From: Formosa agariphila KMM 3901
Lineage (GTDB): Bacteria; Bacteroidota; Bacteroidia; Flavobacteriales; Flavobacteriaceae
Length of the DNA: 64,000 nt
Assembly: GCF_000723205.1 (NCBI RefSeq)
Contig: NZ_HG315671.1
Span: 2,205,351 to 2,269,350 of the forward strand
Direction: 5' to 3'
Positions 4,392-44,767 of the stretch are shown in pieces. The notes under the pieces are model-generated. The model saw nothing but the letters and a program-made list of their open reading frames with translations, was not told the origin of the DNA and ran no database searches. Numbering within the stretch: position 1 is the first letter of the stretch; each line of letters starts with the position of its first letter. Both the position numbers and the translations under genes were made by a program.

Positions 4392-4406
4392 CTATTTGCC
4401 GATACA
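4392..4406 (-). other. Candidate distal attachment site (att core)
   Basis: On the minus strand this reads TGT ATC GGC AAA TAG, that is C-I-G-K-stop. The authentic mnmE end reads TGT ATC GGG AAA TAA. The match is 13/15, in the same orientation, and both mismatches are silent for the encoded tail. That is what one expects if the element once carried the mnmE tail of another strain. Chance occurrence of a 13/15 match somewhere in the window is not negligible, so the arm-site match beside it matters. Confidence 0.5.
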
Positions 4407-4447
4407 GTATCTTACATCTTAATATTCACAAGGGTTAATTTCACATG

Positions 4448-4472
4448 TGTAGTACTTATGAGGTACAAATAA
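4448..4472 (+). other. Candidate arm-type integrase binding site, distal end
   Basis: The motif TGTAGTACTTATGAGGTAC followed by AAATA lies about 40 bases inside the distal core. It matches the motif at 44636-44660 in 15 of 19 positions, then AAATA after a one-base gap. It includes the uninterrupted octamer TGAGGTAC and is in the same orientation. Confidence 0.45.
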
Positions 4473-4647
4473 TGTAAATTTATATTCAAAAAAGTCAACT
4501 AAAAAAATTTACTCACAAAAAGTGTCTGTTTCTTTTAATTAATCATATTTATTTACATTTATTCTTAAAATTCTCGTCTTGTTCGAAAATCTACTTGTAA
4601 TTCAGCACGTTTTCACTAGAAAGGGTACTTAGATTTTTCTTCAACCA

Positions 4648-4842
4648 CTATTTGAACATTTTTAAACAAACTGAATAATTTGTATTCTTAAAAGTCAAAA
4701 TCATATTTTCATTAAAGGCTAAAAATTTATATATCCAGTTGTAAAAAGTAGGATTACAAACTCCAAGCAATTTTTCAAATTGAAGAAAACTAAAGGTTCC
4801 TGACTCGCAATCTTTAACTATAGACAGTTTAAATTCTTCTGA
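4648..4842 (-). pseudogene. Decayed IS3-family OrfA transposase fragment
   Basis: The minus-strand frame from 4842 to the TAG at 4648-4650 encodes 64 residues beginning SEEFKLSIVKDCESGTFS and containing GVCNPTFYNWIYKF. This is the helix-turn-helix region of IS3-family OrfA proteins common in Bacteroidota. The expected N-terminal KR(K)Y is interrupted by a TGA just upstream, and the coiled-coil tail is replaced by unrelated sequence before the stop. No OrfB or clean inverted repeats are seen. The rest of 3748-5034 is AT-rich with no other gene I can support. Confidence 0.65.
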
Positions 4843-5034
4843 ATAAGTTCATCGTTTTTTTTATAGTTTAATGTTTGCTTTCATAAGTTTCCATTTTGTT
4901 TAAAGTGGTCAACCTATATTAGGTTCATACAAAGTTTAATTCATGATTTTTTTGCACTTATAGAGGCAATATAAATTTTCTGACTTAATAAAAATAAGTA
5001 TATTTATTAAATATCCATTTTATTCAAAATTATT

Positions 5035-7152
5035 GTGAAAAACATTTTCATCTCAATACTTATCTCTTTTATTTTATTTAATTGTAGTAAAAGGAAAGAT
5101 TTAAATAGGGAAAACTTTACATATACAAATGATTTAATTGAAGAAAGTAGCCCATACCTTCTTCAGCATGCTCATAATCCTGTAAATTGGAAACCATGGA
5201 ATGAAAAAACACTGGAACTTGCTAAAAAAGAGAATAAATTAATCATTTTATCCATAGGCTATTCAGCGTGTCACTGGTGCCATGTTATGGAAAAAGAAAG
5301 CTTTGAAAATGATTCTATTGCGGCAGTTATGAACAAAAATTTCATCAATATAAAGGTTGACAGAGAAGAACGACCTGACGTCGACAAGGTATATATGCAA
5401 GCGGTACAATTATTAACTGGAAGTGGAGGTTGGCCTTTAAATTGCATTACTCTGCCAGATGGTAGACCTATTTATGGAGGTACTTATTTTGAAAAACATG
5501 AATGGTTGAAAATTATTACCGAAATTTCAAACCTCTATAAAGAGTCTCCAGAAAAAATTTCAGCTTATGCAGAAGAGCTAACTAAAGGCATTAAATCTTC
5601 TGAATTAATCCATATAAAGAAAAAAAACAACGAATTTAAACCCAAATTTATATCGGAAGCTGTTAATTCATGGAAGCCTCAATTAGACTCTATTAATGGA
5701 GGTCAATTGGGTAATATAAAATTCCCTATGCCAATAAATCTCGATTTCCTTTGGAAATTTGGTGTTCAAAATAATGAGGAATCTGTTAAGAACCATGTAA
5801 CAAACACACTTACAAAAATGGCTAAAGGTGGCATTTATGACCAAATAGGTGGTGGATTCTCTAGATATGCTACGGATGAGATTTGGCATATCCCTCATTT
5901 TGAAAAAATGCTATATGATAATGCACAATTAGTAAGCATATATTCCAATGTATATGCTGTCACTAAAGATGAATTATATAAGCAAACTGTACAGCAAACA
6001 CTTAACTTTTTAGAACGAGAATGTTTAGATGAAACAGGAGCATTTTATTCGGCAATTGATGCCGATAGTAAAAATAATGAAGGCAATTTAGAAGAAGGAG
6101 CATTTTATGTTTGGAATCAAGAGGAATTAAAAACAATTTTGGGGACTGATTTTAATTTATTCAAATCATATTATGATATTAGCGATTCAGGTTTGTGGAA
6201 AAATGAGTTATATGTTCTGAAACGAAACCAATTTTCCGTTTCTGAAATTTCTAAAAACAACGATATCAGTGAAGTTGATTTCAATGTTAAAATAAACAAA
6301 TGGAAATCTATTTTATTAAAAGCAAGAAATAAGCGTGCACTTCCACGATTCGACCACAAAATCTTAACATCCTGGAATGCTTTAACCATAAATGCATATC
6401 TTGATGCATATCGTGTATTCAGAGATCCGCATTATTTGGAAATTGCAAGAAAAACTGCAAATTTTATTATTACTAAACAACTACGAACAGATGGAGGATT
6501 AAACCATGTATACACGAACGGAACAAGTTCTATAGATGGTTATGCTGAAGATTACGCAGCAACTATAGAAGCTTTTATTAATTTATATCAAGTCACTTTA
6601 GACGAAACATGGTTAGATAAAGCCGTGAAATTAATAAACTATACGATAACTCATTTTTATGATAAAGAAAATAAGTTATTTTATTACACCTCCAATAATT
6701 CTACACCATTAATAACACGAACTAAAGAATCAACTGATGGTGTAATTCCATCTTCTAACGCAATGTTAGCTAGTTCATTATTTAAATTAAGTTTATATTA
6801 TTTCAATGAAAATTATAGTAATAAAGCAAAGGACATGATGCATATTATGCAAGATCATATGCTTGAATCTCCTTCTAGTTATAGTAAATGGTTAAGTTTA
6901 TTGATGGATTACAGTAATCCATTTTATGAAGTAGTCCTTAGTGGTGATAATGCGATAGCACTTGTAACCGAATTAAATGGCTATTATCTGCCAAATATTA
7001 TTGTGGGAGGGGCAACTTCAGAAAGTAGTTTACCCTTAATGGAAAACAAGTTTAACAAAAATGAAACTTACATATATGTCTGCACAAAAGGCAACTGTAA
7101 ATTACCTCAAACAAAGGTTAGTGAAGCTTTAAAAAGTATTTCAAAAAAGTAG
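5035..7152 (+). CDS. DUF255/YyaL-type thioredoxin-domain protein, lipoprotein
   Basis: 705 residues. A signal with lipobox (ILFNC, C17) suggests envelope anchoring. Residues about 36-200 are the DUF255 thioredoxin-like domain: [12 protein letters not shown], then ACHWCHVM with the C79-H-W-C82 pair and [10 protein letters not shown]. The rest is the (alpha/alpha)6-barrel-like part of the YyaL/spermatogenesis-associated protein 20 family, with [17 protein letters not shown] and [10 protein letters not shown]. The family is usually about 680 residues, so it is full length. The biochemical role is not well defined; the fold resembles N-acylglucosamine epimerases and other sugar-processing barrels. 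The start is GTG at 5035, the only one that keeps the signal peptide. It is the first gene inside the island and stands alone; a role in the sugar pathway is only an inference from position. Confidence 0.88.
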
Positions 7153-7478: not shown

Positions 7479-8885
7479 TTATTTACCTATAATTATTCTT
7501 TCTTTTGAAAAGCCATTTTCCGTCGGTGTTGTAGGCAATCCCGCTTCAAACACTTTAATTTTATGAAGTAAATCGGTTACTTTTTCAGGATAATCTTGAG
7601 ACACATCTATGTGTTCAGCCCAATCTGTATTGATATTATACAATTCCGTTCGACCTAATTCAGCATTAGTTAGAAGTTTCCAATTAGCCTCTTGAATTCC
7701 AGAACTTGGCCAGAAATATGGACTATTATTTGAAAAACGCCAATCCCAATAAATGGGTTTCTCACGATTATAAAGTGCTCCTTTTATAAGGCTTACAATG
7801 CTTTCACCGTCAGACTGGTAGCCATCTGGTAAAGTTTCATTTGCCAATTCTAAAAACGTGGGTAGTAAATCTACGGTAGCCAATTCAGTGGTATTATTTA
7901 CTATTCCTGCAGGAACAGTTCCTGGCCATCTTACAATAAATGGAATACGAACACCGCCTGCAAACAAAGATCGTTTTTGTCCTTTTAATCCATTGGTTTC
8001 TCCAACCGAATAATAAGTTCCAAAACCTGGGCCGGTAGAATTATCATCTGCAATTTTTTGCTCACCTGTAATTTCTGGTCCATTATCCGATGAAAATATG
8101 ACTAAGGTATTCTCATCTATACCTAAGCTTTTTATCGTTTCCAATAATGCTCCTATACGCGCATCATATTCTGCAACTACAGCAGCATAAACTTGTTCTT
8201 GTTCATTTAAATATGCAAATTGTTTTAGAAATTTTTCTTTTGGATAATGTGGTGTATGTGTCGCGTGAATCCAAGCATTCACAAAAAAGGGTTTCTCCTT
8301 ATTACGTTTAATAAAATCGATTGTTTTATATAACGTGGAATCTGCTTGCATTTGATGCAGACTACTTGGTAAATTAAATGCCCCATATTCATCATATCCA
8401 TACTCCAATGGCGATGGCGCATCTGAAACATGAGTATTAGAAAGATGCCATTTACCAAAGTGAGCGGTAGCATAACCTGCTTCTTTTAGCATTCGCGGTA
8501 AAGATGGCGCTTTAGGGTCTAACCAATCAGGCATACCTCTTTCCATATGTGAGACTACAGATGCAAAATGACCATGAACACTTTGACGCGCAGGAAACTG
8601 ACCAGTCATTACGGCAACTCTACTTGGTGAACAGACAGGGTTAACCACAGAAAAATTTTGAAAATCTATGCCTTCAGCTGCCATCTTATCAAGGTTTGGA
8701 GTTTTACAAAATGTACTCCCGTGAATACCCAAATCTCCATACCCCCAATCATCTGCATAAATGAAAATAATATTAGGTTGATTTACTTTAACTATTTCGG
8801 TATGTGCTAATGTTGTTTTTTTGTTTTGATTACAAGAAAAAAACATCAAGACTATAAGTAATGTATAAAGTTGGCTGGATTTCAT
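7479..8885 (-). CDS. Formylglycine-dependent sulfatase (type I), lipoprotein
   Basis: 468 residues with a lipobox (FFSC, C18), so probably periplasmic or surface anchored. The alkaline-phosphatase-like sulfatase fold is clear: metal-binding DD at 45-46 (IFIYADDWGYGDLG), the modification signature C85-S-P-S-R (converted to formylglycine by an anaerobic-type or FGE-type maturase encoded elsewhere), FGKWHLS, and a second metal site FSSDNGPE. It removes ester sulfate from a glycan; the position and sugar cannot be read from sequence. It is last in the minus-strand run GH29, TIM-barrel protein, sulfatase, sulfatase, but a 351-base gap with a terminator separates it from the previous sulfatase, so it probably has its own promoter. 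Confidence 0.95.
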   Translation of the reverse strand: MKSSQLYTLLIVLMFFSCNQNKKTTLAHTEIVKVNQPNIIFIYADDWGYGDLGIHGSTFCKTPNLDKMAAEGIDFQNFSVVNPVCSPSRVAVMTGQFPARQSVHGHFASVVSHMERGMPDWLDPKAPSLPRMLKEAGYATAHFGKWHLSNTHVSDAPSPLEYGYDEYGAFNLPSSLHQMQADSTLYKTIDFIKRNKEKPFFVNAWIHATHTPHYPKEKFLKQFAYLNEQEQVYAAVVAEYDARIGALLETIKSLGIDENTLVIFSSDNGPEITGEQKIADDNSTGPGFGTYYSVGETNGLKGQKRSLFAGGVRIPFIVRWPGTVPAGIVNNTTELATVDLLPTFLELANETLPDGYQSDGESIVSLIKGALYNREKPIYWDWRFSNNSPYFWPSSGIQEANWKLLTNAELGRTELYNINTDWAEHIDVSQDYPEKVTDLLHKIKVFEAGLPTTPTENGFSKERIIIGK

Positions 8886-9177: not shown

Positions 9178-9179
9178 AA

Positions 9180-9213
9180 AAATGAGTCATTGATCAAGAT
9201 CAACGACTCATTT
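9180..9213 (-). terminator. Hairpin terminator after the 609-aa sulfatase gene
   Basis: AAATGAGTCATTGATC (9180-9195) pairs with GATCAACGACTCATTT (9198-9213) with one mismatch and a 2-base loop. It lies 24 bases past the stop of the minus-strand sulfatase. A-rich sequence on the plus strand before it gives a T-run on the minus transcript. Confidence 0.8.
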
Positions 9214-9236: not shown

Positions 9237-11048
9237 TTATTCTCTTGTAATTCTTAAATAAAAAGCCCCCCAATCTACATTATCAGTATTTGTAAACCAA
9301 GCTTTCAAATTCGTTTTGCCTTTAGTAAAGTTTCCAGTAAAAGCTATAGATTCTGCATCCTGAAGTACATCTTTTTCTTGTTTCCATCCTCCAATTTCTA
9401 CACCACCAGATTTAAAATTCATCACTTTACCATCACTAATGGGATCGGTAGAAATTGTTGCAGGTCTTCCTACAATGGATTCATTTATTGCTAATCCAGA
9501 TTCAAAAGGCCAACGGCTAATTTCAATCTTATACTTTCCGTCTTGTTCAAAATCTATGGTATACTCACCTCCAATTGGATTCTTTAAGGCTTCTCTTATA
9601 AAATTTTGATTCCACGGAATGGTAGAATCATGTACGTGTCCATCATGACAAGTAATTTCGATTGGATTTTGATTATCAGAACCAACAACTATAACAGGAA
9701 ATTGATTAAATTCTGATGACACAGAACTCCACCATTCTTCATAATAACCTCGCATTTTTTTAACTTGTTCCGGATTTTGACTTGACAAGTCATTTGTTTG
9801 TCCCGGATCTATAGCGATATCGTATAATTCCTCGCCATTTACCAATCTCATTTTATTAGACATTACAGCGCTTTTTCTCCATTTAATTGGTGCTTGTACA
9901 CGTTGTGAATCGGTTATTAAATAATCTCTATTTAAAGTGGCATCTTCATCCAACAGTAAAGTAGAAATATCAGAACCATCAATGCTTAATTCTGGCATTT
10001 CAATATCACATAAGGTGGCTAATGTTGGTAACACATCTAAATGGGCTGTTAGGGTTTCGACATCTTTACCGCCGCTAATATTTCCATCAGGATAGGATAT
10101 AAAGAATGGTACACGATGTCCGCCCTCATATTCACTATTTTTTATCCCCTTCATCCCAGCATTAAATCCATACATTTTTCCATCGACATCCATATAACCT
10201 GAGGCTGTACCATTATCTGTCATAAATATCAAGATGGTATTATCTTTAATTTTTAAATCTTTTAAAGTCTTCTGAAGTTTAGCAAAATTATCATCTACAT
10301 TAGTAATCATCCCATAAAAAATCTTTTGAAATTCTGGAATATCAGCGTCTTTATATTGGTTATAATAAGATTCAGGAACGTTAAATGGTAAGTGAGGTGC
10401 ATTTAAAGAAATATAACAAAAGAATGGGGCGTCCTTACTTTTTTCAATAAATTTAATGGCCTCATCAAACCAAATATCAGTACAATACCCTTCAAACGTT
10501 TTAGGAATTCCATTTTCAAAATAAGTATCATCAAAATAATCATTCCCCCAATAATCAGGTGTTTGTCCAACACCTCCACCACCGTGGATTAAAGTATACT
10601 TAAACCCTTTATCTTGTGGTCTCGCAGGATATGTATCTCCTAAATGCCATTTACCAAACATAGCTGTATCGTAACCATTATCCTGGAAGATCTGTGCCAT
10701 GGTTATTTCATTTTCTCTAAGAATTGAAACACCTCCAATGGTATGCCACACACCTACTCTATTCGCATACCTTCCTGTCATTAAACCTGAACGTGAAGGT
10801 GCACATGTAGGCGCGACATGGAAGTCTGTTAACCGAATCGACTCCTCATAAAAAGCATCAATATTTGGCGTTTTCACAATTGGATTCCCAGTACTCCCCA
10901 AATCACCATAACCCTGATCATCGGTGATCACTATGATAACATTTGGTTTTGATTTCCCTTCTATTTTAGTTTCCTTTTTTAGTTGTGAAAAACTAGTTGT
11001 TATGACTCCCAACCAAACTACAAATACTATAATAATCCTTTTGTTCAT
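9237..11048 (-). CDS. Formylglycine-dependent sulfatase, secreted, with C-terminal extension
   Basis: About 603 residues from the preferred start MNKRIIIVF at 11048. An in-frame ATG at 11066 would overlap the upstream gene and put charged residues before the signal peptide. Signal peptide to about residue 22 (VITTSFSQ), no lipobox Cys. Sulfatase landmarks: ITDDQGYGDLG, the formylglycine signature C82-A-P-S-R, MFGKWHLGD and MTDNGT. About residues 450-603 form an extra beta-rich region (HDGHVHDSTIPWNQNF, then YKIEISRWPFESGLAIN) typical of sulfatases that act on endo-positions of polymers, though its role here is unknown. It starts 9 bases after the upstream stop, so it is translated in one operon with the GHL15-like and GH29 genes. 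Confidence 0.94.
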   Translation of the reverse strand: MNKRIIIVFVVWLGVITTSFSQLKKETKIEGKSKPNVIIVITDDQGYGDLGSTGNPIVKTPNIDAFYEESIRLTDFHVAPTCAPSRSGLMTGRYANRVGVWHTIGGVSILRENEITMAQIFQDNGYDTAMFGKWHLGDTYPARPQDKGFKYTLIHGGGGVGQTPDYWGNDYFDDTYFENGIPKTFEGYCTDIWFDEAIKFIEKSKDAPFFCYISLNAPHLPFNVPESYYNQYKDADIPEFQKIFYGMITNVDDNFAKLQKTLKDLKIKDNTILIFMTDNGTASGYMDVDGKMYGFNAGMKGIKNSEYEGGHRVPFFISYPDGNISGGKDVETLTAHLDVLPTLATLCDIEMPELSIDGSDISTLLLDEDATLNRDYLITDSQRVQAPIKWRKSAVMSNKMRLVNGEELYDIAIDPGQTNDLSSQNPEQVKKMRGYYEEWWSSVSSEFNQFPVIVVGSDNQNPIEITCHDGHVHDSTIPWNQNFIREALKNPIGGEYTIDFEQDGKYKIEISRWPFESGLAINESIVGRPATISTDPISDGKVMNFKSGGVEIGGWKQEKDVLQDAESIAFTGNFTKGKTNLKAWFTNTDNVDWGAFYLRITRE

Positions 11049-11056
11049 TTTGTATT

Positions 11057-12181
11057 TTATTTCCAATTAATTTTAGCTTCATTTGTTTCTAAGTTTATCC
11101 AAATTGAAGCGTGTTCATATATTCTTGTTAATTCATATCCATTTACAACCATATCATTTATGGGTTTGCCCAATGGTTTGTCAAATTCAGGATACCATTC
11201 TAAGCACCCCATTTCCATTTTGTATCCCCAATTATAAATAAAATAAGAATGTTCCTGAGCCCCAACTAAAAATGCTGCCAACGGAAACGTAATATTGTCT
11301 TCTGAAATTTTAATTTTTTCTGAATACGGTTTAACCATAAAATCCTTATCAATCCAAGCAAAACCTGGCCAAGCCTTAAAAACTACAATCTTACCAGATT
11401 TACCCGCTTTTTCCATTTCTTGTATATCTGTTAGCATACTTTCTTTTGAATCACTAGCAAAATGCCCGAAATGCTCAATCATTACAACATCGGTATAATC
11501 GGGGAAAACATTTCCTACATTTCTCTTTGGAGTTGATCGAATCCCGTTATAAACTATTAATTTATTATCGCCCAATTTTTCGCGAGTTTCCTTTATTAAA
11601 TCGTTTAAACCTTGCTGTACCGAATCATATTTTTCTTGTCCCCATAAATTAATATTGTTTGGATCTGAAATTTGAATAAATGCATCCATAAATATACCAT
11701 CTGTACTGCCATCGACAATTTCGTTTTTAGCCACATTTGTCCACCAATTCCTGACTTCTACATTAGACAAATCATAACGTTGTAATCCCTTACTTTTAAA
11801 ATCCAATTCACCATCTTGCTTACGCAGCCACCAATTCGGGTTTTCTTGATAGACTTCATGCGCCTTGTACATACCGTAATCTAAAAATGCATTCCAGTAG
11901 AAAATAACTTTCATATCTGGATTTATCTCTTTTAAGTGCTTTGCTTCCTTTTCAATAGTGGTTTCTGTATATTTATAACTTGGAAGCCCATGACCTTTTT
12001 CTAAAACAATGAAATTTGATTTTGATGTTACAAATTTTGCTTCTTCTTTAGTCATTAAACTATCACTTTTCCCAAAATGAAAAGCAATAGGTACTGTTTC
12101 CCAACTAAATTTTGGATAATAGTCTTCTTGAGAATACGCTGAAATACTAAAGATAAAAAGAAAAAAGAAAATATTTTTCAA
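11057..12181 (-). CDS. Secreted TIM-barrel glycoside hydrolase-like protein (GHL15-like)
   Basis: 374 residues with signal peptide (cleavage near AYSQ, residue 18). The sequence looks like the putative glycoside hydrolase group GHL15 (Pfam PF14885): VIFYWNAFLDYG, then NPNWWLRKQDGE, DLSNVEVRNWWTNV, a strand ending in DGIFMDAF (D is a candidate catalytic or substrate-binding acid) and LIVYNGIR, later MIEHFGHF. These follow the strand order of a beta/alpha barrel. To my knowledge members of this group lack a firm biochemical assignment. It lies between a GH29 fucosidase (17-base gap) and a sulfatase (near-contiguous), so it most likely acts on the same fucose-rich sulfated glycan. The family call is from pattern memory; the barrel nature is more certain than the family. 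Confidence 0.6.
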   Translation of the reverse strand: MKNIFFFLFIFSISAYSQEDYYPKFSWETVPIAFHFGKSDSLMTKEEAKFVTSKSNFIVLEKGHGLPSYKYTETTIEKEAKHLKEINPDMKVIFYWNAFLDYGMYKAHEVYQENPNWWLRKQDGELDFKSKGLQRYDLSNVEVRNWWTNVAKNEIVDGSTDGIFMDAFIQISDPNNINLWGQEKYDSVQQGLNDLIKETREKLGDNKLIVYNGIRSTPKRNVGNVFPDYTDVVMIEHFGHFASDSKESMLTDIQEMEKAGKSGKIVVFKAWPGFAWIDKDFMVKPYSEKIKISEDNITFPLAAFLVGAQEHSYFIYNWGYKMEMGCLEWYPEFDKPLGKPINDMVVNGYELTRIYEHASIWINLETNEAKINWK

Positions 12182-36270: not shown

Positions 36271-36696
36271 TTATCTCACAGACTCTAAAAAATTGTTGCT
36301 TAGACTTTTATCTTTATTTCTTAACCAAGTGTAATAAGCATTTTTACTTACCTTCATACAATAACACATCTTTTCAACAGGGTACTTACCTGTATGATTT
36401 TTTATAAAACCATATTTTACCTGTCGTTCTTGGAAAAGATGCTTACCCCCCCTTTTTAGAATATCTCGCTCTAATCTTATTTCTTTTAACTCCTTCTCTG
36501 AAGCCTTGATGCGAAGCCTCTCTTGAGAAGTTGTCTTATCCTGGGATGTCCCTTTTGTTTTTAAATCCTTTTTCCATCTATTTATAGAGGCTTCACTAAC
36601 TCCGTATTCTTCAGACAAATACTTAACTATTTCCCCTGTATTTAACAACTTTACAATGGTTATTTTAAATTCCTAATCGTAATTCTTTTTATTCAT
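36271..36696 (-). pseudogene. IS3-family OrfA transposase with premature stop
   Basis: The natural start is the ATG at 36694-36696 (MNKKNYD), followed by an in-frame TAG at 36673-36675 where the family has a sense codon before EFKITIVKLLNTGEI. Downstream the frame stays open to 36271: helix-turn-helix (VKYLSEEYGVSEASINRWKK), leucine-zipper region (LRIKASEKELKEIRLERDIL), then it runs into OrfB-type sequence (KYGFIKNHTGKYPVEKMCY). The fusion of OrfA to OrfB without the usual programmed frameshift is another sign of decay. Part of the broken IS. Confidence 0.75.
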
Positions 36697-36732
36697 ATTA
36701 CAAATTTAAGTTTATCACATAAATCTGTACAA

Positions 36733-36864
36733 ACTAAAGTAGACATTCCAATCTTTCAGTGGATAGAAACTTGGTACAATAAGAAAAGAAGACATTCCTT
36801 TCTAGGAAACAAAAATATTAAAGAATTTGAATTAGATATGTATAACCTTGAACTAGCTGCATAG
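36733..36864 (+). pseudogene. C-terminal remnant of a second IS3-family OrfB
   Basis: A plus-strand frame encodes TKVDIPIFQWIETWYNKK followed by RRHSFLGNKNIKEFELDMYN and ends at the TAG 36862-36864. WIETWYNKKRRHS-LG is the hallmark C-terminus of IS3/IS150-type OrfB. It is on the opposite strand to the neighbouring IS, whose right end touches it, so it looks like an older insertion cut by a later one. After the stop, the sequence to about 36910 resembles an IS end (TTCAACTAATTGTTCAG). Confidence 0.65.
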
Positions 36865-36918
36865 TCATTCAACTAATTGTTCAGATTTTTGTTGAAAGTC
36901 CAGTTTGTGCAATATTAT

Positions 36919-37071: not shown

Positions 37072-37643
37072 CAAGTACTAGTTGATTGTATTATACCTGT
37101 TTTCATCATTGCTAAATATTCATATATTAAGAATAAACAAAGTGATATCATTGATTTAATCACTAAATATATTACTTTCTATAGAAATAAGAGTACAGTT
37201 AACCGTAAAATGGAAAGTAATATTACATACGAGGTGCTTTAAGTAATTCAAATTATAAATATGGAAGAAAATCAATCGAACATAACGTAAATGCTGTAGG
37301 TAGGAATGGAATTTGATTGCTTCCCGTTTTTCTCGGGAATTAGCGAGCAAGTGGAGTGGAAGTAGGAAGCCTTAATATTGTGTTCAAGACTTTTCAAGGA
37401 AGCGCTTTTCCCGTAATGAAGCTTTTCGCGGAATGAAGTGGGAATGGGCTGAACGGCTTATTATCTATAACTCTCTTTTAAATTTGGATCACCCCAAATC
37501 TCCCATAACTTAACTGCGCGTGGATCCGATGCTGTTTTTATAGTGTTCCGTTAGATAAACGTAAAGTAAAAACAGCATGGGGAGCTTTCGAAATTACAAT
37601 TAGTATTTCATTTTAATTATAATCAAAGTAAGTATGAAGTTGG
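37072..37643. other. Gene-poor region with a 12-bp inverted repeat and a decayed frame
   Basis: ATGCTGTTTTTA (37529-37540) and TAAAAACAGCAT (37567-37578) form a perfect 12-bp inverted repeat with 26 bases between. A short minus-strand frame ending at 37461 reads SDPRAVKLWEIWGDPNLK and looks like the C-terminal piece of a lost protein. Otherwise no gene is supported. The region separates the IS remnants from the mobilization module. Confidence 0.4.
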
Positions 37644-38768
37644 CTATTTCGGATCGTTATTAGAAGACATTCCTATCAGTTCATAATTAGTGCTTCTTCC
37701 CCCTGCAGCTTCTTTTTGTAAAATACCTTTTTCCATTAAATCATTAATATCACGAACGGCAGAATCTTTAGAACATTTCGCTATTTTAGCCCATTTGGAG
37801 GATGTTAGTTTCCCGTCAAATCCATCCATTAATCTATTTAATAGTTTTCTTTGTCTTTCATTAATTGGAGTTTTTAAATGTTTTTGCCAAAACTCTGCTT
37901 TTGCCAAGACTCGTGTCAATACAGAATCTGTAGCTTTTAAAGCGTTAATTAAACAATTTAAAAACCAGATAATCCAAGGTGTTATATCCAAATCACCTTT
38001 CTGTGTTTCTTCGAGTATCTCGTAATATTGCTTCCTTTCTAATCGTATTTGTGCAGACATACTATAAAATCGCTGGGTACTTTTATCAGATTGTGCCAAA
38101 AGCATATCTGTTAATGCTCTGGTTATTCTTCCGTTTCCATCATCAAACGGATGGATAGTCACAAACCATAGGTGTGCAATTGCTGCCTTTAGAACTAAAT
38201 CAGTTTTTGAGGTATTAAACCAATCAAGGAATCGTGTCATTTCTTCATCCAACACATCAGAGTTTGGTGCTTGAAAATGAATTTTCTCTTTTCCCATAGC
38301 TCCAGATACGACTTGCATTGGCCCCGTGGTATTTTGCCTCCAGTCTGCAACGGTAATTTTATACATACCACTTCTACCTGTAGGAAATAAAGCCGCATGC
38401 CAATCAAATAGTCTATCTTTTGTTAGTGGTTCAAAACAATGTTGGGTGGCATCGAGCATCATTTCTACTACACCATCAATATGCCTATCGGATTCAATTG
38501 ATCCTACGATTTCCATTCCTAACCGACGAGCAATTGAAGAACGCACTTGGCCTGGATTCAGAATTTCTCCTTCAATCTCTGAAGTTTTTATAACATCTAA
38601 AGTTAGCGTATCAAGCAAAGCCTCATTTCTTAAATCGAAACCTAACGTTTCCATTTTCCCTATAAGTCTACCTTGAAGATTTCTAGCTTCACTTAACAGA
38701 CTCATAAATTCATTACTTTCCCATGAAAATTCTGGCCAATTATCTTTTTGATGTATAAATGCTTTCAT
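37644..38768 (-). CDS. Fic-domain protein with DUF4172-like N-terminus (probable AMP transferase)
   Basis: About 374 residues from the ATG at 38768 (MKAFIHQKDNWPEFSWE, the usual DUF4172 opening); an ATG six codons upstream is less likely. Numbering here counts from that upstream ATG. The Fic motif is complete: H212-PFDDGNGR-I-T-R, so the enzyme can be active. The inhibitory helix motif [S/T]xxxE[G/N] is present at 68-73 (TSEIEG), making it a class II, self-inhibited Fic. A C-terminal winged-helix segment (about 310-370: RQRKLLNRLMDG to SAVRDINDLMEKG) is likely DNA-binding. It probably transfers AMP from ATP to a protein target. It is the last gene of the mobilization module, 145 bases from its neighbour, with a palindrome upstream. 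In islands such proteins often act in stability or host control; this is inference. Confidence 0.92.
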   Translation of the reverse strand: MKAFIHQKDNWPEFSWESNEFMSLLSEARNLQGRLIGKMETLGFDLRNEALLDTLTLDVIKTSEIEGEILNPGQVRSSIARRLGMEIVGSIESDRHIDGVVEMMLDATQHCFEPLTKDRLFDWHAALFPTGRSGMYKITVADWRQNTTGPMQVVSGAMGKEKIHFQAPNSDVLDEEMTRFLDWFNTSKTDLVLKAAIAHLWFVTIHPFDDGNGRITRALTDMLLAQSDKSTQRFYSMSAQIRLERKQYYEILEETQKGDLDITPWIIWFLNCLINALKATDSVLTRVLAKAEFWQKHLKTPINERQRKLLNRLMDGFDGKLTSSKWAKIAKCSKDSAVRDINDLMEKGILQKEAAGGRSTNYELIGMSSNNDPK

Positions 38769-38829
38769 TCGATGCAGTATTTGCAACGAAAATAAACTTT
38801 ATTCGTCGCATATCAAAATTAACCGATGC

Positions 38830-38870
38830 TAATGTTGCATCAAATAATACAAGTATGCGATGCAACATTA
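38830..38870. promoter_or_regulatory. Perfect 12-bp inverted repeat upstream of the Fic gene
   Basis: TAATGTTGCATC (38830-38841) and GATGCAACATTA (38859-38870), 17 bases apart, about 60 bases before the Fic start. Further GATGCA/TGCGA words occur around it. The spacing and position suggest an operator, possibly bound by the winged-helix tail of the Fic protein itself. There is no T-run, so a terminator is unlikely. Confidence 0.5.
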
Positions 38871-38913
38871 GATTTACAGTCTTATTTAATGGATAATTCT
38901 AATCAACGTTTTT

Positions 38914-39249
38914 TCAAAACCCTTCTATTTTCAATACTACGATTAGTAAATAACCTATAATAAGAGCTAATGAAATAAAAAATACAGTCACAAGAATTAG
39001 TAGCCAATTTGGGATAACCCTGGCATTTTTTAGTTTTATAAAAAGCTCATTGTGTTGTTCCTTTTGTAAGGTTTGAACGTGTTCCTGTTTTTTGATAAAT
39101 TCCTGTAAAATCAGTATAATTTCTGTGCTATCCGCTTTAATTCTAACGTCCTTTAAGGTCTTTGAAACCTGTTCCACACGCTGTGCTTGGTTCTTGAATT
39201 CCTGTAATTCTTCAACCAATAATTCTGATATAATTTCTAATTTTGTCAT
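38914..39249 (-). CDS. Small coiled-coil membrane protein of the mobilization module, 111 aa
   Basis: Residues about 1-75 are a lysine/glutamate/glutamine-rich coiled coil (EELQEFKNQAQRVEQVSKTL, FIKKQEHVQTLQKEQHNEL); about 82-106 form one strong transmembrane helix (WLLILVTVFFISLALIIGYLLIVVL). Its start codon overlaps the stop of the relaxase gene (ATGA at 39246-39249), so the two are translationally coupled. Proteins of this shape accompany Bacteroidota MOBP relaxases; it might tether the relaxosome to the membrane or coupling protein. That role is inferred from order and shape only. Confidence 0.75.
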   Translation of the reverse strand: MTKLEIISELLVEELQEFKNQAQRVEQVSKTLKDVRIKADSTEIILILQEFIKKQEHVQTLQKEQHNELFIKLKNARVIPNWLLILVTVFFISLALIIGYLLIVVLKIEGF

Positions 39250-40115
39250 ATCCCTATTCCTGTTTCAATTACCTTTTTAATCGCTTGTTTTAATACTTTC
39301 TTTGTCAGGCTCTGCAATAAATTTCCAGACAGGGCCAATTTGGCGCCCTGAATTAGAATACTATTATCTTTTTTATTAATAATTGTCATATAGTTCTGTG
39401 CATCCAGACTTTGAATAATCCGCCCTCCAGATAACGAACGATGCACCTCACTAGCCTTTAAATTATAACATTTAAACTCAAACCGGAATCCTTGTAACTG
39501 ATTCGATTTATTAATATAAGGAATCACATTAACGCCCTTTTCTTGCATCAATTTCATATAAGAATCTATAGACTTAGGTTTATGCTTTAAAAGGACTTCG
39601 GAATGAAGGGTTTTGATTTCTGTTCGGATACTTTTTAACTGAAGAAGACGTTGCTGGCGAATATCTTTAACTGTTTGCATTCCGAGATCTTTTGCTACAC
39701 GCTCTGCGGCAATTTGACTACGTTTTCCAATAAAACTATCGTTATAAGCCTTTCCATTTAAATCTATACGATTAACATACAAATGAATATGTTTATGCGC
39801 CTTATCATGATGCACAAAGGCAATGGCTTGCCGGTCTGCTAATTTCATATCTTCAAGAAATTTAGAGGCTATATTTCCAAGCGCTTTATTGTCTAATGTT
39901 TTTCCATCTTCAATAGTTGGACTCAAAACAAAACTAAAAGTGTTTCGTTGACAATTGTCGTTAAGTGATTGAATGGCTCTAAATTCTTTAGCTATTTCAT
40001 CTGGATGTTCTCCTGTAATTAAATGAGTGTATACAGTTTCCGCTCCCTTTTCATGATCATTGCCATAACCAATGGCAGCCTTAGTACTCGATATAGCAGT
40101 AGCTTTACCTATCAT
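39246..40115 (-). CDS. Relaxase/mobilization nuclease (MOBP-type)
   Basis: 289 residues. The three-His metal site is present: H107-K-H109-I-H111 in HHDKAHKHIHLYVNRI; candidate nucleophile tyrosines are Y17 (AAIGYGND) and Y29. The N-terminal about 150 residues form the relaxase domain (PF03432 type), and the rest is helical (IRTEIKTLHSEVLLKHKPKS). It nicks oriT on one strand and stays bound to the 5' end for transfer. There is no type IV secretion or coupling protein in the window, so the element would be mobilizable, using a helper conjugative element. Its start overlaps the stop of the MobC-like gene (ATGA, 40112-40115). Confidence 0.93.
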   Translation of the reverse strand: MIGKATAISSTKAAIGYGNDHEKGAETVYTHLITGEHPDEIAKEFRAIQSLNDNCQRNTFSFVLSPTIEDGKTLDNKALGNIASKFLEDMKLADRQAIAFVHHDKAHKHIHLYVNRIDLNGKAYNDSFIGKRSQIAAERVAKDLGMQTVKDIRQQRLLQLKSIRTEIKTLHSEVLLKHKPKSIDSYMKLMQEKGVNVIPYINKSNQLQGFRFEFKCYNLKASEVHRSLSGGRIIQSLDAQNYMTIINKKDNSILIQGAKLALSGNLLQSLTKKVLKQAIKKVIETGIGI

Positions 40116-40408
40116 GATGTTATTTTTTTTAAATGAGATTGGATTTCTCTAGCCACAACCAACACTTCTTCTTCTAATTTTGGATTCGCAACACGATACA
40201 TGTTCCCAATCCTTTTAAAGTTGTTATGGTAGGTAACTAACATTTTATAGATCATAATATGTTCTTCTGTCATCCGCTGGGTTAACTCTTTTTCTAATAA
40301 GGCTCGTCTGCAAAACGCGCTCAAAGTCAATCCCGCATGTTTTGCTTTTGCGTTTAAAAACTTCTTTTCGTAAACGCTACACCTAAATTTGATTAGACTT
40401 CGTTTCAT
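40112..40408 (-). CDS. MobC-like ribbon-helix-helix relaxosome protein
   Basis: 98 residues, basic. The beginning KRSLIKFRCSVYEKKFLNAKAKHAGLTLSAFCRRALLEKE is the RHH/MobC pattern: a beta strand followed by two helices. The rest is the NNFKRIGNMYRVANP segment characteristic of Bacteroidota mobilization accessory proteins. It should bind at or near oriT and help the relaxase open the DNA. It lies just downstream of the nested hairpin at 40448-40489 and upstream of the relaxase with an ATGA overlap. Confidence 0.9.
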   Translation of the reverse strand: MKRSLIKFRCSVYEKKFLNAKAKHAGLTLSAFCRRALLEKELTQRMTEEHIMIYKMLVTYHNNFKRIGNMYRVANPKLEEEVLVVAREIQSHLKKITS

Positions 40409-40447
40409 CTTGTTTTGTTCTATTTATTTTCTTTGCGACCATCGGGA

Positions 40448-40489
40448 GTAAAGCAAGGTTTGTGGCCACAGCCACACATCTTGCTTTAC
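40448..40489. other. Nested inverted repeat, candidate oriT
   Basis: Two nested perfect palindromes: outer arms GTAAAGCAAG (40448-40457) and CTTGCTTTAC (40480-40489), inner arms TGTGGC (40461-40466) and GCCACA (40471-40476), with a CACA loop. It sits in the 84-base gap between the primase-like gene and the MobC-like gene, the usual place for oriT next to mob genes. There is no T-run on either side, so it is not an ordinary terminator. The nick site is not identified. Confidence 0.5.
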
Positions 40490-40492
40490 GCT

Positions 40493-41368
40493 CTACTTCA
40501 ATTCAAGTTTTCGTTTTATAAGCCAATCATTTACGTCGCCATAACCACTATAAATAATTGATTTATCAATACAATTTGTATTACAATGTTTTTCTAAATA
40601 CAGAGCTGTTGCCTTTCGTCCTGCTTGATCGCGATCTAAATAAAGTTCAACCGTATCATAGTTTTCTAAAATGGGCCAGGTCAGTTTTATGAGACTTAGG
40701 GAATTCAATACTAAAAAGTCTCTTGAAGTTTTCATTTTTGGGAATGCTGTTAGTATGGAGAGAAAATCGAACATACCTTCAGTTATCACAAGTGCTTTAC
40801 TTCCAATTTGGAGATGCGTAATATCTTTGGGAGAAGTACAACTTTTAAAATAGGGATTACGTAATTCCCAGCCTCCTGAAATATTTTCAAAACCAATTGA
40901 AAATAAATGTTTTGATCCCAATTGAAAATGGGCTTCTTTACAAAACTGTTTGGCCAATGCATAAGGGATTTTCCTTTTCTTCAGATATGTAATTAGTGCT
41001 CCATGCTGAATCTCTTTTGTTTCTAAAATTTTTAATTTAGAGGACTGATTTTTATTAGTATGGATTGGTGGCCTTATTTCATAATTCACTGTTTTTAATT
41101 TGGCTAGGATAAGCAAGGCATCTGCTACAGAAATTTTTAAAATGGCACATACCAAATCAATGATGTTTCCGCCTTTACCTATGCCGTGATCATACCAACG
41201 GTTTAATTGTTTTGACACCTTTAATGACGCGTGGGTTTCTGTACGAAATGGACTAAGAAACCAGGCGTCTTGTTGTTGTTCTCGAGAAGGAAAGTGGCCA
41301 AGCATAGCTAAGGCTTCCATTATAGATAATGATCGGGCAGTTTCACAGGTTAGTTTTTTTGTTTTCAT
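40493..41368 (-). CDS. Primase-like protein with CHC2-like zinc-binding and Toprim regions
   Basis: 291 residues from the ATG at 41368 (MKTKKLTCETARSLSI); a further upstream ATG adds an unconvincing leader. Residues about 1-90 resemble the CHC2-type DNA-primase N-terminus found in mobile elements (FLSPFRTETHASLKVSKQLN, WYDHGIGKGGNIIDLVCAI), though the zinc Cys/His set is incomplete. Residues about 185-285 are a Toprim fold: KALVITEGMFDFLS with the catalytic Glu, LVLNSLSLIKL, and VELYLDRDQAGRKAT with the DxD acidic pair. It likely synthesizes primers or supports replication of the excised or transferred strand. It follows the helicase-like gene after about 200 bases, all on the minus strand. 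Confidence 0.85.
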   Translation of the reverse strand: MKTKKLTCETARSLSIMEALAMLGHFPSREQQQDAWFLSPFRTETHASLKVSKQLNRWYDHGIGKGGNIIDLVCAILKISVADALLILAKLKTVNYEIRPPIHTNKNQSSKLKILETKEIQHGALITYLKKRKIPYALAKQFCKEAHFQLGSKHLFSIGFENISGGWELRNPYFKSCTSPKDITHLQIGSKALVITEGMFDFLSILTAFPKMKTSRDFLVLNSLSLIKLTWPILENYDTVELYLDRDQAGRKATALYLEKHCNTNCIDKSIIYSGYGDVNDWLIKRKLELK

Positions 41369-41572
41369 AAGGCAATATGTTTTTAGATTTTTTTTGATGA
41401 ATTGATGACAACCCCTTGAATCTCTATCTATACCAAGAAATATCAAGTCATCAATAATTCATCGTTTCATCATTTTTATATTTTAATTTTTAGTTCTTGT
41501 CATCATTTTCTATTTTGATGACCGTTTGATGAGTATTTTGATGACAGCTTAACCCTTGTAAATACTAGGGTT

Positions 41573-42781
41573 TTACAATCCTGTCATCGTTTCATCAAAA
41601 TTTTCAAGTAAAAACTCTTTTGTAATGGTAAAATAACGCCCCTTATTTTCGGTTAAAATCTCAGTACCATCCTGTAAAATCATAAATTTTTGATAGCTGT
41701 TAGAGTTCGGCTGATTGGTTAAATTCCAATCGTGTTTCAGTAGCCGCCTAAGTTGAGTCAAGTCGGTTTTTACTCGTGTTCTGTTTAAAGCACTTAACGC
41801 ATCCATTGGACACAACTGAATTTCTTCTAACTCAAACTTTTCTATAATTCCGAACAGAATACTGGCCAATTCCTTTTCTACACGATTTCTATTATTTTGC
41901 ACTAACCTTAAAAGAGCAGGAGTTTTTATTTGTCTAGGCGTGAACCACATGCGAGTGATATTTTGAGATTCTAGTTCTCTAGTATTTAGGAAATTTAGAA
42001 AGGCTGGTATTTCTTCAATAAGTCCTTGTAGTAAATCAATACGTTCCTTTTTTATAACAGGAATTTTTAAAACCCAGAATCGGGTTTCATTGGCATCGAT
42101 CTTTATGAAATTGGTTTCATTATTACTACATAAAATGAACTTTCCAAAAAACTCAACTTCACGTTTGTCTTTACCTTTGGCTTCCAATTTATTTATATTT
42201 GTAGTACTTAAATATTTAATACGCTCTGTTAATTCTTCTTTATTGAATAGTACTTCATCTATACAAATCAATAATTTGTTTGCCCAATCGGCATTAAACT
42301 GACTGCTAAAACTATCGTTAGTTAAATAAGTTAGGTTGTTTTCAAAGATGGCTTTCATCCATTTTAGAAACGTACTTTTTCCTGTAACACGTTCTTTGGA
42401 TACCAGGCATAAAATGGGTAAGATTTGAACAGGTTTTTGATATAAGAGCTGCAGATAATCTAACCCTAAGGAAAAATGATCTCCAAAGATATGTTTCAGA
42501 AAACCGAGTGTCTCATAACAATCACCAGCTTTTGGAATGTTACTTAAAGGCGAATAAGTGTTATAGAATCCTAAATATTCCGGTTTAAAATCGATGTGAT
42601 TTGGAATACAAGTAAAACCATCATATTTAGAGATTTTACTTAAATAATTTTTTCCGTGATCTTGTTTTATGGTTTCCATATTCCAATGCACAAGAAATTC
42701 ATTAAAATGACCAGCAATAGTGGGTGCTTTAACCATTTTGTAATAGGAAGTCCCCACACGAACATATGGTATCTTTATCAT
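41573..42781 (-). CDS. Primase-helicase (SF3-like ATPase) of the mobile element
   Basis: 402 residues. The middle is a P-loop ATPase: Walker A variant SKERVTGKSTFLKWM (about 128-142, first Gly replaced by Ser), Walker B LLICIDEVLF with the acidic pair, and sensor-1-like FILCSNNETNFI. This pattern matches the DUF5906/primase-helicase proteins of mobile elements. The N-terminus lacks a full primase polymerase core, and the C-terminus holds a winged-helix-like part (DLTQLRRLLKHDW). With the Toprim protein just downstream it forms a helicase-primase pair that could replicate the circular form of the element. No signal peptide. Confidence 0.85.
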   Translation of the reverse strand: MIKIPYVRVGTSYYKMVKAPTIAGHFNEFLVHWNMETIKQDHGKNYLSKISKYDGFTCIPNHIDFKPEYLGFYNTYSPLSNIPKAGDCYETLGFLKHIFGDHFSLGLDYLQLLYQKPVQILPILCLVSKERVTGKSTFLKWMKAIFENNLTYLTNDSFSSQFNADWANKLLICIDEVLFNKEELTERIKYLSTTNINKLEAKGKDKREVEFFGKFILCSNNETNFIKIDANETRFWVLKIPVIKKERIDLLQGLIEEIPAFLNFLNTRELESQNITRMWFTPRQIKTPALLRLVQNNRNRVEKELASILFGIIEKFELEEIQLCPMDALSALNRTRVKTDLTQLRRLLKHDWNLTNQPNSNSYQKFMILQDGTEILTENKGRYFTITKEFLLENFDETMTGL

Positions 42782-42842
42782 AATAAGAGGTATTTAGCTT
42801 AAAGTATTTTAAGCATGAATAATTAGTTTTATGAAGTAGAAA

Positions 42843-43130
42843 TTACTTTAGTTTATGTTTGAGTACATACTCTAAAGCCTGTTCGTGAATTTCCTGTTTG
42901 GATTTTCGTTTATTTTGAAGTAACCACTCTACGACTTTATCCTTTTCGAAAAAAATCATCTTACCATTGGGTTTTGAGTGTGGAATTGTGCCAGAAGCCG
43001 TTAATTTATATAAATAACTTCTAGATATACCTGTATAGTCACAGGTTTCCTCGAAGGTTAACACCTCCTTATGTCCTACTAATAGTTTCTCTAAACGAGC
43101 TAATCGTTCTAATATTAAAATATTGTCCAT
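42843..43130 (-). CDS. Excisionase-like helix-turn-helix protein
   Basis: 95 residues from the ATG at 43130 (MDNILILERLARLEK); an upstream ATG at 43163 gives a hydrophobic leader that is unlikely. The core is a MerR-like/HTH_17 winged helix: LTFEETCDYTGISRSYLYKLTASGTIPHSK, then PNGKMIFFEKDKVVEWL. This form is common next to tyrosine integrases in Bacteroidota mobile elements, where it serves as a directionality factor or regulator. It lies between the integrase and the helicase gene and 61 bases before the latter. Confidence 0.9.
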   Translation of the reverse strand: MDNILILERLARLEKLLVGHKEVLTFEETCDYTGISRSYLYKLTASGTIPHSKPNGKMIFFEKDKVVEWLLQNKRKSKQEIHEQALEYVLKHKLK

Positions 43131-43163
43131 TTTCTTAGGTTTAAGAATTAATAAAATGAACAA

Positions 43164-43468
43164 GAGCGCACTTGTTTTCTCTTATGAGATTATAGAAATA
43201 AAGGTATAAAACAAGCAAACAAAGGAGGTTTATTAAGACGATTAGTTCTTAACAAATTACTGATTACTAATTAATTATAACAAAAACTCGTATAAATAGG
43301 TAAATAATATTTGATAAAATTTTATTTGATATTAAATGTGGGTTTTTACCATTCAATAAAATTTATAGAAATTTGAATAAAAAAAGTTATTAACAACAAA
43401 ATCAATATATTAACAGTAAAATATTAATAAAATCGACAGAATTTCTTCTAGAAATGATAAACATAAAG
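43164..43468. other. AT-rich spacer between integrase and HTH genes
   Basis: Very AT-rich, with the octamer-like word TATTAACA or TATTAATA repeated around 43388-43432 at intervals of about 20 and 14 bases. It could hold binding sites for the HTH protein or an AT-rich replication start, but the repeat is too loose to call. Confidence 0.3.
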
Positions 43469-44602
43469 CTAGAACTCTACATTAAATTCAGGAATTAGGT
43501 TAGAAGCTTCTTTCATTTTTTGATCTACAATTTTGGCATAAATGGCTGTAGTCCTAATTTCTCTATGTCCCAAACGCTTAGATACTGTATAGATATCTGC
43601 TCCATTTTCTAATAGTAAAACAGCATTTGTGTGCCTCGCACTATGGAATGTAATATGCTTGGAAATTCCTGCGCGATTACACCACCTCACAATTTCATTA
43701 TTATAAACTGCTGAATATTTGAGACCTACAAATACGCGATCATTAGACGAAAGACGATTACCTAACAATTGGCGTGCTTGTTTTGAGATATATAGATATT
43801 CTACGCCATCCGTTTTCTTTTGTCTAAAGTTAACACGGCTCGTATTATCCTCATCACGTACTTCAGACCAAGTCATCGCATTGATGTCTGACCATCTTAA
43901 ACCGGATAAACACGAAAATAAAAAAGCCCGTTTTAAAACTTCATATTTACATTTTGTATTAACCAAATTTTGTAATTCTTGGAATGTAAGATATTCTCTC
44001 TGACTTTCTGCCTGTTCGAAAGATTTTACTTTTGTAGCATAGTTAATTGACAAATAACCTTCATCAAAAGCAGCTCTTAAAGCAGCTTTAAATTTATTGA
44101 AGTATGAATATTTTGAATTAAGGGATAACGGTAAATCACTTTTAGTGTGTGCTTTCTTGTCAAAATATTTACGAACGTTGTTCACGAAATTTTCATCAAT
44201 GTCGTCGAACACAGTATTCGTCGAAACACAACGCTCCAAATGAATGAATGCAGCAGTCCAGTTACCATAGTTTTTAGGACTTTCATACCGTTCTTCCACC
44301 TTCTCTTTAAAGAAGTCTAAAAATCGTCTTTTACCTTTTGTTGTGTTTTTTAAATCAAACTTACCTTGGTAGTATTCTGCTTCCCGAATAGCCAGAATTT
44401 TTTTGGCCAATAACCGTGTCTCTTTATTCTCTTTTCTTTCAATAGCATTTTTAGGATCACTAAATAAATACAATTTTAAGTTTTCTCGGTCTCTTATGTG
44501 TTTCCTTTTTCCTTCTGGAGATATTTCCGAACCTTTATAGTATTCTATAAGTAAGCTAATTTTGCCACTCGATAATTTCCTTTCTATAAGCGATATTTTC
44601 AT
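43469..44602 (-). CDS. Tyrosine recombinase (integrase) of the island
   Basis: About 377 residues from MKISLIERKLSSGK at 44602; an ATG at 44614 adds four residues. Numbering here counts from 44614. N-terminal arm-binding domain (KISLLIEYYKG), SAM-like core-binding domain (about 100-195), then the catalytic domain with all signature residues: R240 (SGLRWSDI), H324-S-A-R327-H, H350 (LGHRE) and nucleophile Y359 (TTAIYAK). It is of the Bacteroidota phage/CTn integrase type, usual length about 380-410. It lies 151 bases from the mnmE stop and its start region overlaps a candidate arm site, so it may regulate itself by binding there. It should catalyse integration at and excision from the mnmE 3' end. 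Confidence 0.95.
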   Translation of the reverse strand: MKISLIERKLSSGKISLLIEYYKGSEISPEGKRKHIRDRENLKLYLFSDPKNAIERKENKETRLLAKKILAIREAEYYQGKFDLKNTTKGKRRFLDFFKEKVEERYESPKNYGNWTAAFIHLERCVSTNTVFDDIDENFVNNVRKYFDKKAHTKSDLPLSLNSKYSYFNKFKAALRAAFDEGYLSINYATKVKSFEQAESQREYLTFQELQNLVNTKCKYEVLKRAFLFSCLSGLRWSDINAMTWSEVRDEDNTSRVNFRQKKTDGVEYLYISKQARQLLGNRLSSNDRVFVGLKYSAVYNNEIVRWCNRAGISKHITFHSARHTNAVLLLENGADIYTVSKRLGHREIRTTAIYAKIVDQKMKEASNLIPEFNVEF

Positions 44603-44604
44603 AA

Positions 44605-44660
44605 TGTGGTACATTTGTACTACATATTTTATAAATGCGGTACATGTGAGGTACCAAATA
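44605..44660 (+). other. Candidate arm-type integrase binding sites, mnmE end
   Basis: Two related copies. One at 44605-44627 begins TGTGGTACATTTGTACTAC; the other at 44636-44660 begins TGCGGTACATGTGAGGTACC and ends AAATA. The second matches the motif at 4448-4472 near the other proposed end. They lie between the integrase start and the mnmE core, where arm sites are expected. Confidence 0.45.
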
Positions 44661-44752
44661 TAATAATAAAGGAATTATAAAGAAAATACTATTCCATATA
44701 ACACGCTGATTATCAACAAAAAGAAACTAAAGTAAACCATAAGAAACGTAAT

Positions 44753-44767
44753 TTATTTCCCGATACA
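44753..44767 (-). other. Attachment core within the mnmE 3' end
   Basis: On the minus strand TGT ATC GGG AAA TAA, the last codons (CIGK-stop) of mnmE. The repeat at 4392-4406 is the proposed partner. The same part of trmE/mnmE is used by SGI1-type islands in Gammaproteobacteria (established knowledge), so its use by a Bacteroidota integrase would be convergent choice of target. Confidence 0.55.

Follow-up and report, generated by a model that had tools for sequence, protein, structure and literature searches.

A probable mobilizable island at the mnmE 3' end with a polysaccharide utilization locus as cargo

Can a polysaccharide utilization locus (PUL) for sulfated glycans be moved as cargo of a mobilizable element inserted at the 3' end of mnmE? 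The question was raised by a DNA stretch of 64,000 nucleotides, here called the window, which corresponds to positions 2205351-2269350 of a single-contig genome of 4,228,350 bases. Positions 4392-44767 of the window are best read as an integrative and mobilizable element (IME) of about 40 kb at the mnmE 3' end, with the PUL inside as cargo. This reading is probable and is supported by an mnmE-specific integrase family, by a far repeat that recurred in 29 of 39 genomes and by a conserved flank that stops 0.56-0.64 kb outside the left end. The original prediction had started from a repeat of the mnmE end, an integrase abutting mnmE, and PUL and mobilization genes lying inside. This observation was confirmed. 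Three features define the ends of the island:

4392-4406, minus strand: far copy of the mnmE end, putative att site on the chromosomal side, agreeing at 15/15 positions with the mnmE end of G005, a sister species
43469-44614, minus strand: mnmE-specific tyrosine integrase (Pfam; relatives located at mnmE)
44753-44767, minus strand: mnmE 3' end, the integration site (sequence; genome-wide motif search)

The mnmE gene (44753-46147, minus strand) terminates in TGTATCGGGAAATAA, which encodes C-I-G-K-stop. The sequence at 4392-4406 on the same strand is TGTATCGGCAAATAG and likewise encodes C-I-G-K-stop; the predicted direct orientation and identity of 13/15 were verified. Judged from the window alone, the repeat was weak. 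A search with up to two mismatches found two matches including mnmE itself, with 0.71 expected, and 15 of 100 shuffles reached two. With comparative data, the repeat stood well beyond chance. The motif TGTATCGGNAARTAR had exactly two matches in the 4.23-Mb genome, the mnmE end and the 4392 copy, 40,361 bp apart on one strand. The looser motif TGYATHGGNAARTAR gave one further match, 1.75 Mb away. A second same-strand copy of the mnmE end within 60 kb downstream of mnmE was present in 29 of 39 genomes (31 copies, 8.9-54.7 kb away), with no copy within 60 kb upstream in the same genomes; two genomes held an opposite-strand copy. The two genome-wide matches, the identity to the G005 mnmE end and this recurrent arrangement together show that the repeat is real. 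The island thus appears to be flanked by att sites, as expected for an IME.

The 39 genomes were those with full listings among 46, which comprised the best integrase matches and six genomes of the genus. Four of the other seven genomes were fetched, and all four had a second copy, at 16.5-22.7 kb. The mnmE site of G181, which ends in TGA, was entered by hand in the count, and a copy at 98 kb in G251 fell outside the 60-kb limit. Two of the six genus genomes in the sample were without the integrase: G003 had no integrase label and G001 gave no match by tblastn.

The integrase was correctly predicted to abut the mnmE 3' end. It starts 138 bp after the mnmE stop, scored over the cut-off of Pfam Phage_integrase and has the catalytic motifs, so that the island has an integrase of its own. 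We take these motifs, and those of the relaxase, Fic protein and sulfatases below, to have their usual functional meaning. An integrase match at E<=1e-40 was found in 62 of 299 genomes of the family. The best 30 loci, including the one in the window, were checked, and all were within about 1.1 kb of the mnmE 3' end. In a named collection, 76 of the best 80 relatives were located 140-398 bp after mnmE. The remaining four were L172 and L193, which were cut by contig ends, L162, which lacked mnmE, and L179, which had the 15-mer and no mnmE match. Relatives at the mnmE end came from Winogradskyella, Gelidibacter, Leeuwenhoekiella, Myroides, Flavobacterium, Chryseobacterium, Elizabethkingia, Algoriphagus, Pedobacter, Sphingobacterium and others; the closest named ones presumably belong to genera of the Flavobacteriaceae. 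The gene order integrase, helix-turn-helix (HTH) protein, helicase-like protein and primase was repeated in many named loci, some of which also had MobC and relaxase. The integrase family is mnmE-specific across Bacteroidota. A phage search with the integrase gave 41.7% as the best value among the matches listed.

The relaxase, MobC-like and replication genes predicted inside the island were recovered by Pfam and NCBIfam. They form a core behind the integrase:

37644-38786, minus strand: Fic/DUF4172 protein with HPFDDGN motif (Pfam; motif check)
38914-39249, minus strand: DUF6730 protein (Pfam)
39246-40115, minus strand: MobA-type relaxase, MOBP-like (Pfam Relaxase over cut-off; NCBIfam MbpB and MobP below their cut-offs)
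40112-40408, minus strand: MobC/MbpA relaxosome protein, NikA/MbpA-type (Pfam; NCBIfam MbpA 100.8 bits, cut-off 90)
40433-40489, minus strand: candidate origin of transfer (oriT), a 19-nt inverted repeat (40448-40489) followed by CCCGATGGTCGCAA, just before mobC (motif search)
40493-41446, minus strand: Toprim primase (Pfam)
41573-42781, minus strand: DUF5906/VapE-like protein (Pfam)
42843-43163, minus strand: excisionase-family HTH protein of 106 aa, candidate directionality factor (Pfam; TIGR01764 40.2 bits, cut-off 28.8)

The relaxase and Fic motifs were present. The relaxase, NikA-like and MbpA matches together with the candidate oriT are the relaxase and oriT expected of an IME, and the island is probably mobilizable. 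Seven of nine islands with mobC and mobA, all but G104 and G005, had a form of the oriT motif, as did 4 of 80 named loci. All matches were on the sense strand, with no antisense match in about 2.8 Mb. In G122 and G149, the longest mobC frame contains the motif within its first 200 bases; the true start probably lies after the motif. No type IV secretion domain was detected at E<=0.001 among 23 Pfam-scanned proteins from 5.0-44.6 kb, in keeping with an IME that has no mating apparatus. Two genes of the TraG family of Bacteroidetes conjugative elements, both scoring over its cut-off, were present in the same genome. They are possible helpers, a role for which their presence is only suggestive.

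Core and mnmE gave different degrees of relatedness between genomes. The copy of window positions 37474-44281 in G002 showed 91.8% nucleotide identity over 6.8 kb, compared with 81.4% for the mnmE coding sequences. The integrase was 87% identical in amino acids to that of Winogradskyella psychrotolerans, with MnmE at 79%, and only 60% identical to that of the congener G005, with MnmE at 92%. These values show that the core moved recently between lineages. Of 29 plasmid records matching the core, the 20 listed matched only the Fic/DUF4172 gene, as judged by feature name. The Fic gene was also considered as a marker of the far end, since it is close to the far site in G149 (0.17 kb), in G157 (0.2 kb, as a fragment of 86 aa) and in G005 (2.3 kb). 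It was rejected because the protein starts indicated that these were not one orthologous gene.

The remainder of the island is dominated by the PUL:

5035-7152, plus strand: Thioredox_DsbH/DUF255 protein, the outermost gene on the side of the far att site (Pfam; only short matches in five sister genomes, paralogue of 62% in the same genome)
7479-8885, minus strand: sulfatase with CSPSR motif (Pfam, motif; relatives of 48-49% in G001 and G002)
9237-11066, minus strand: sulfatase with CAPSR motif (Pfam, motif; relatives of 49-52% in G001 and G002)
11057-12181, minus strand: GHL15 putative glycoside hydrolase (Pfam)
12199-13995, minus strand: GH29 alpha-L-fucosidase (Pfam; relatives of 68% in G001 and G002)
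14258-15511, plus strand: 3-keto-disaccharide hydrolase domain protein (Pfam)
15523-16257, plus strand: ThuA-like protein (Pfam)
16322-17806, plus strand: vanadium-chloroperoxidase/PAP2-like protein (Pfam)
18047-22201, minus strand: hybrid two-component sensor (HTCS; Pfam)
22527-24113, minus strand: sulfatase with CTPTR motif (Pfam, motif)
24255-27551, minus strand: FG-GAP/UnbV_ASPIC protein (Pfam)
27602-29113, minus strand: SusD (Pfam; best listed relative in another genome 45%)
29141-32308, minus strand: SusC-type TonB receptor (Pfam)
32745-35363, minus strand: 872-aa protein that matches no Pfam or NCBIfam family

The adjacent SusC and SusD genes, with a regulator and degradative enzymes, identify the locus as a PUL, and C-x-P-[ST]-R was kept in all three sulfatases. 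It had been predicted to be complete. Genes for transport, sensing, sulfatases and fucosidase were indeed present, which supports completeness in part; the 872-aa protein matches no family. In a survey that scored no more than three candidates in each genome, SusD at E<=1e-90 was found in the same genome and in 20 others of 397. Recent transfer of the PUL is not apparent: the best listed SusD elsewhere was 45% identical. Among the matches listed, the sister genomes held only scattered pieces of the part at 17.9-35.6 kb, up to about 1.2 kb long, with the longer ones at 68% nucleotide identity or less. The 872-aa protein is possibly a new glycan-active protein. A partial paralogue of the PUL region, with about 65% nucleotide identity and comprising the FG-GAP protein and parts of SusD and SusC, was located at 2575868-2583321 of the same genome.

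The left border was examined by comparison with sister species. The left flank was conserved over positions 1-3821 in G004 (79%), 1-3748 in G001 (74%) and up to 3829 in G003 (69-71%), so that in these three species conservation ended 0.56-0.64 kb short of the border predicted at 4392. G002 and G005 showed matches of only 45-49 bp. The flank was on the same side of mnmE and in the same orientation at a distance of 104 kb in G003, 157 kb in G004 and 41 kb in the genome of the window; in G001, it was on another contig than mnmE. The extent of flank conservation and the differing distances indicate that the DNA between flank and mnmE is variable and that the left border is at 3.83-4.39 kb or just inside, consistent with the border predicted by the repeat.

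Related islands were compared for their cargo. A SusC-SusD pair was present between the repeats in four of 33 repeat-pair islands (the one in the window, G002, G035 and G269), with SusD checked by Pfam in all four and SusC in that of the window and G002. The cargo of G035 comprised two GH32 proteins, DUF4960, SusD, a PfkB kinase, a sugar transporter and a hybrid sensor, which we take to be a typical fructan PUL. In G269, SusD, three sulfatases and a sulfatase-modifying enzyme were found. The claim that a PUL can be mobile cargo was borne out as far as two islands from other genera, G035 and G269, hold PULs between their repeats; joint movement of the PUL in the window with its core is suggested by the anatomy and by these parallel islands. 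In G002, thioredoxin-like proteins were located beside SusC-SusD. Other cargo included type I restriction genes (G005 and G104) and, in G285 (L120), a 703-aa Piwi-domain protein beside an efflux system. Most islands were represented by DNA to just past the second copy. It is about an even call whether one Bacteroidota-wide family specific for the mnmE end acts as an exchangeable carrier of this kind. The carrier would have a conserved integrase, excisionase-like and replication core, relaxase and oriT hairpin in one branch, and a cargo bay for swapping restriction systems, argonautes, efflux pumps and whole glycan diets such as those on sulfated polysaccharide or fructan.

Two candidate labels were rejected. 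The cargo of G005 had been guessed from length as SusC/SusD, and Pfam gave type I restriction genes; a "SusC" label in G216 proved to be an MG2/Plug protein. Frames of exactly 703 aa, the length of the Piwi-domain protein of G285, were present in 12 other mnmE-end islands; the observation concerned G285 and islands of the 50%-identity integrase clade. The region 0-54.7 kb downstream of mnmE in G002 contains tandem integrase labels, the second in a 135-aa frame beside a match resembling an insertion sequence (IS), and is apparently a composite of two islands.

Several observations weigh against a single 40-kb element, and some of them concern the boundary between PUL and core:

35658-36902: decayed IS remnants between PUL and core (HTH_Tnp_1 at 36271-36648; pieces match elsewhere in G002 and G003), which we take to be IS3-like
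about 37460: approximate end of the stretch common to the window, G002 and G003 (alignment)

The shared core stops sharply near 37,460 in all three genomes, different DNA follows in each, and the IS remnants adjoin this joint. A sharp core end beside an IS remnant makes a two-step assembly possible. In the rival explanation, the PUL arrived with an older island that has the 4392 site as its border; a smaller module (about 37.46-44.75 kb) entered at mnmE later, and its own far site was lost. The 40 kb would then be two elements, which the outer sites could still excise together. The tandem integrase labels at mnmE in G002 favour this stepwise accretion, as does an 8.9-kb repeat pair in G216, which shows that small units occur. 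However, no att-like sequence was found at the 37.46-kb core end with up to three mismatches, a single integrase label was present in 30 of 33 repeat-pair islands, and the second copy was mostly 15-55 kb away. The sharp core end itself fits cargo exchange behind a fixed core as well as a small element beside an older PUL island. Stepwise accretion is considered rather unlikely. Much less probable still is that the 4392 match arose by chance and that the PUL is ordinary chromosomal DNA beside a 7-kb mobile element. The 0.71 matches expected in the window alone speak for it, as does a diverged relative of the PUL enzyme set, which in G002 is remote from mnmE and in G001 has a contig of its own. 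It is already largely refuted by the occurrence of only two matches in the genome, the full identity to a real mnmE end in G005, the presence of a copy downstream in 29 of 39 genomes and upstream in none, and the scattered state of 17.9-35.6 kb in the sisters among the matches listed.

Other points also count against the IME with PUL cargo. The far repeat has two mismatches relative to the mnmE end, and the 560 bp at 3830-4391 between conserved flank and repeat were attributed to neither. The GC profile showed no clear step at either island end. No second genome with the PUL of 4392-44767 in the same element was found, nor an empty site in the sister genomes compared. The search for empty sites that had been proposed yielded no junction of left flank and mnmE end, nor did it yield the junction at 37 kb that would have spoken against the original prediction. 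On the side of the left flank that faces mnmE, the sisters differ from each other, which indicates a plastic hotspot where a site is more than just filled or empty. The models used recognized both mob genes in only nine of 33 repeat-pair islands, and the G002 interval holds two integrase labels. SusC-SusD pairs near mnmE were also located outside repeat pairs, in G025 and G075 beyond their second copy, and in G001, where a different pair is 3-7.5 kb after mnmE without integrase and without a second copy. The PUL of the window was not itself found at this place without the integrase module, an arrangement that would have spoken against the original prediction. The diverged PUL was located at 118-155 kb in G002, where mnmE is at 1.03 Mb, and on contig C37 of G001. 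Relative to the PUL of the window, it showed 68% for GH29, 48-58% for sulfatases, 41% for HTCS, 32% for SusC and 24-25% for SusD. It had no match at E<=1e-10 for the GHL15, ThuA, 3-keto-hydrolase, chloroperoxidase-like, FG-GAP, DsbH-like and 872-aa proteins. Given this relative, the PUL enzymes are not foreign to the genus and may come from its own stock.

If 4392-44767 is an IME, the following course can be proposed. The tyrosine integrase would recombine a core of about 15 bp that forms the last mnmE codons (CIGK-stop). Integration would leave mnmE whole, with the second mnmE end marking the far border. The excisionase-like protein would favour excision, and the primase and VapE-like genes may support replication of the excised circle. 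MobC and the MOBP-like relaxase would nick the hairpin oriT that precedes mobC, after which the nicked strand would be carried across by a conjugative system resident in the cell. DNA from the core to the far att site would be exchangeable cargo, here the sulfatase, fucosidase, SusCD and HTCS locus.

To our knowledge, the spread of glycan diets among free-living Bacteroidota has mostly been inferred from gene trees. A defined integrase family with a fixed target and a recognizable core makes this question testable at any mnmE 3' end. If the reading is true, the carrier family would be a general route for diet trading among environmental flavobacteria. Its components are already known separately: IMEs, the mnmE/trmE 3' end as target in Gammaproteobacteria, and PULs on mobile elements of gut Bacteroidetes. 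Among the literature matches listed (open-licence text, titles and abstract openings), no Bacteroidota-wide mnmE-specific family with PUL cargo was described.

SGI1-type islands use the same gene end in Gammaproteobacteria, as the original prediction had stated. According to the available sections of PMC5704250 and PMC7449626, SGI1 and MGIVchHai6 are mobilizable islands at the trmE/mnmE 3' end of Gammaproteobacteria, mobilized by IncC (IncA/C) plasmids. The island in the window resembles them in the gene end, tyrosine integrase, predicted mobilizability and varied cargo. In contrast to SGI1, it has a MOBP-like relaxase and MobC and no Tra domain in the Pfam scan, whereas the SGI1 family is characterized by traN, traH and traG homologues without a canonical relaxase; the review table of PMC5704250 gives the Salmonella element with TraG/H/N and no relaxase. 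Despite integration at the same mnmE 3' end, SGI1 is best treated as an analogy and not as an established relative. The Bacteroides mobilizable elements NBU1, NBU2, Tn4555, Tn4399 and cLV25 have a MobP relaxase and depend on conjugative elements, and NBU1, Tn4555 and cLV25 have a tyrosine integrase (PMC5704250, available sections). The relaxase type is alike, and the island of the window has an MbpA match over cut-off; the Bacteroides rows of that table list other or nonspecific integration sites, unlike the mnmE end. In the available text of the review, the only two mentions of 'trmE' concern SGI1 and MGIVchHai6, and 'polysaccharide' is absent. For gut Bacteroidetes, the available parts of PMC6907783 report 47 SusC and SusD loci on mobile elements, with IMEs limited to 30 kb, below the size of the island, and those of PMC8845570 report porphyran, agarose and carrageenan PULs on integrative and conjugative elements or mobilizable plasmids. 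The island differs from these in its flavobacterium-type host and mnmE-specific carrier family. As gammaproteobacterial islands use the same site, the mnmE end with its conserved CIGK-stop coding sequence seems to have been chosen for landing repeatedly.

Minor observations were made in the sister genomes and the window. The regions G001:C37 (L285, L286) and G002:118001-155000 (L287, L288) contain several sulfatases and GH29 related to those of the window, and G001:C37 has one mnmE-end-like 15-mer at 26122 on the minus strand, possibly by chance. Rfam gave no match at gathering scores. The left flank common to G001, G003 and G004 (window 1-4391 and 40 kb leftward; L046, L045) is possibly a type VI secretion locus, given a TssD/Hcp match that falls slightly short of the cut-off. 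A 29-kb cluster, 81-90% identical, is located at +12.4 to +41.2 kb downstream of mnmE in G003 and at +30.3 to +58.8 kb in G004. The G003 cluster is closely followed by an exact second copy of the mnmE end at +41,380, the surroundings of which resemble the DNA after mnmE.

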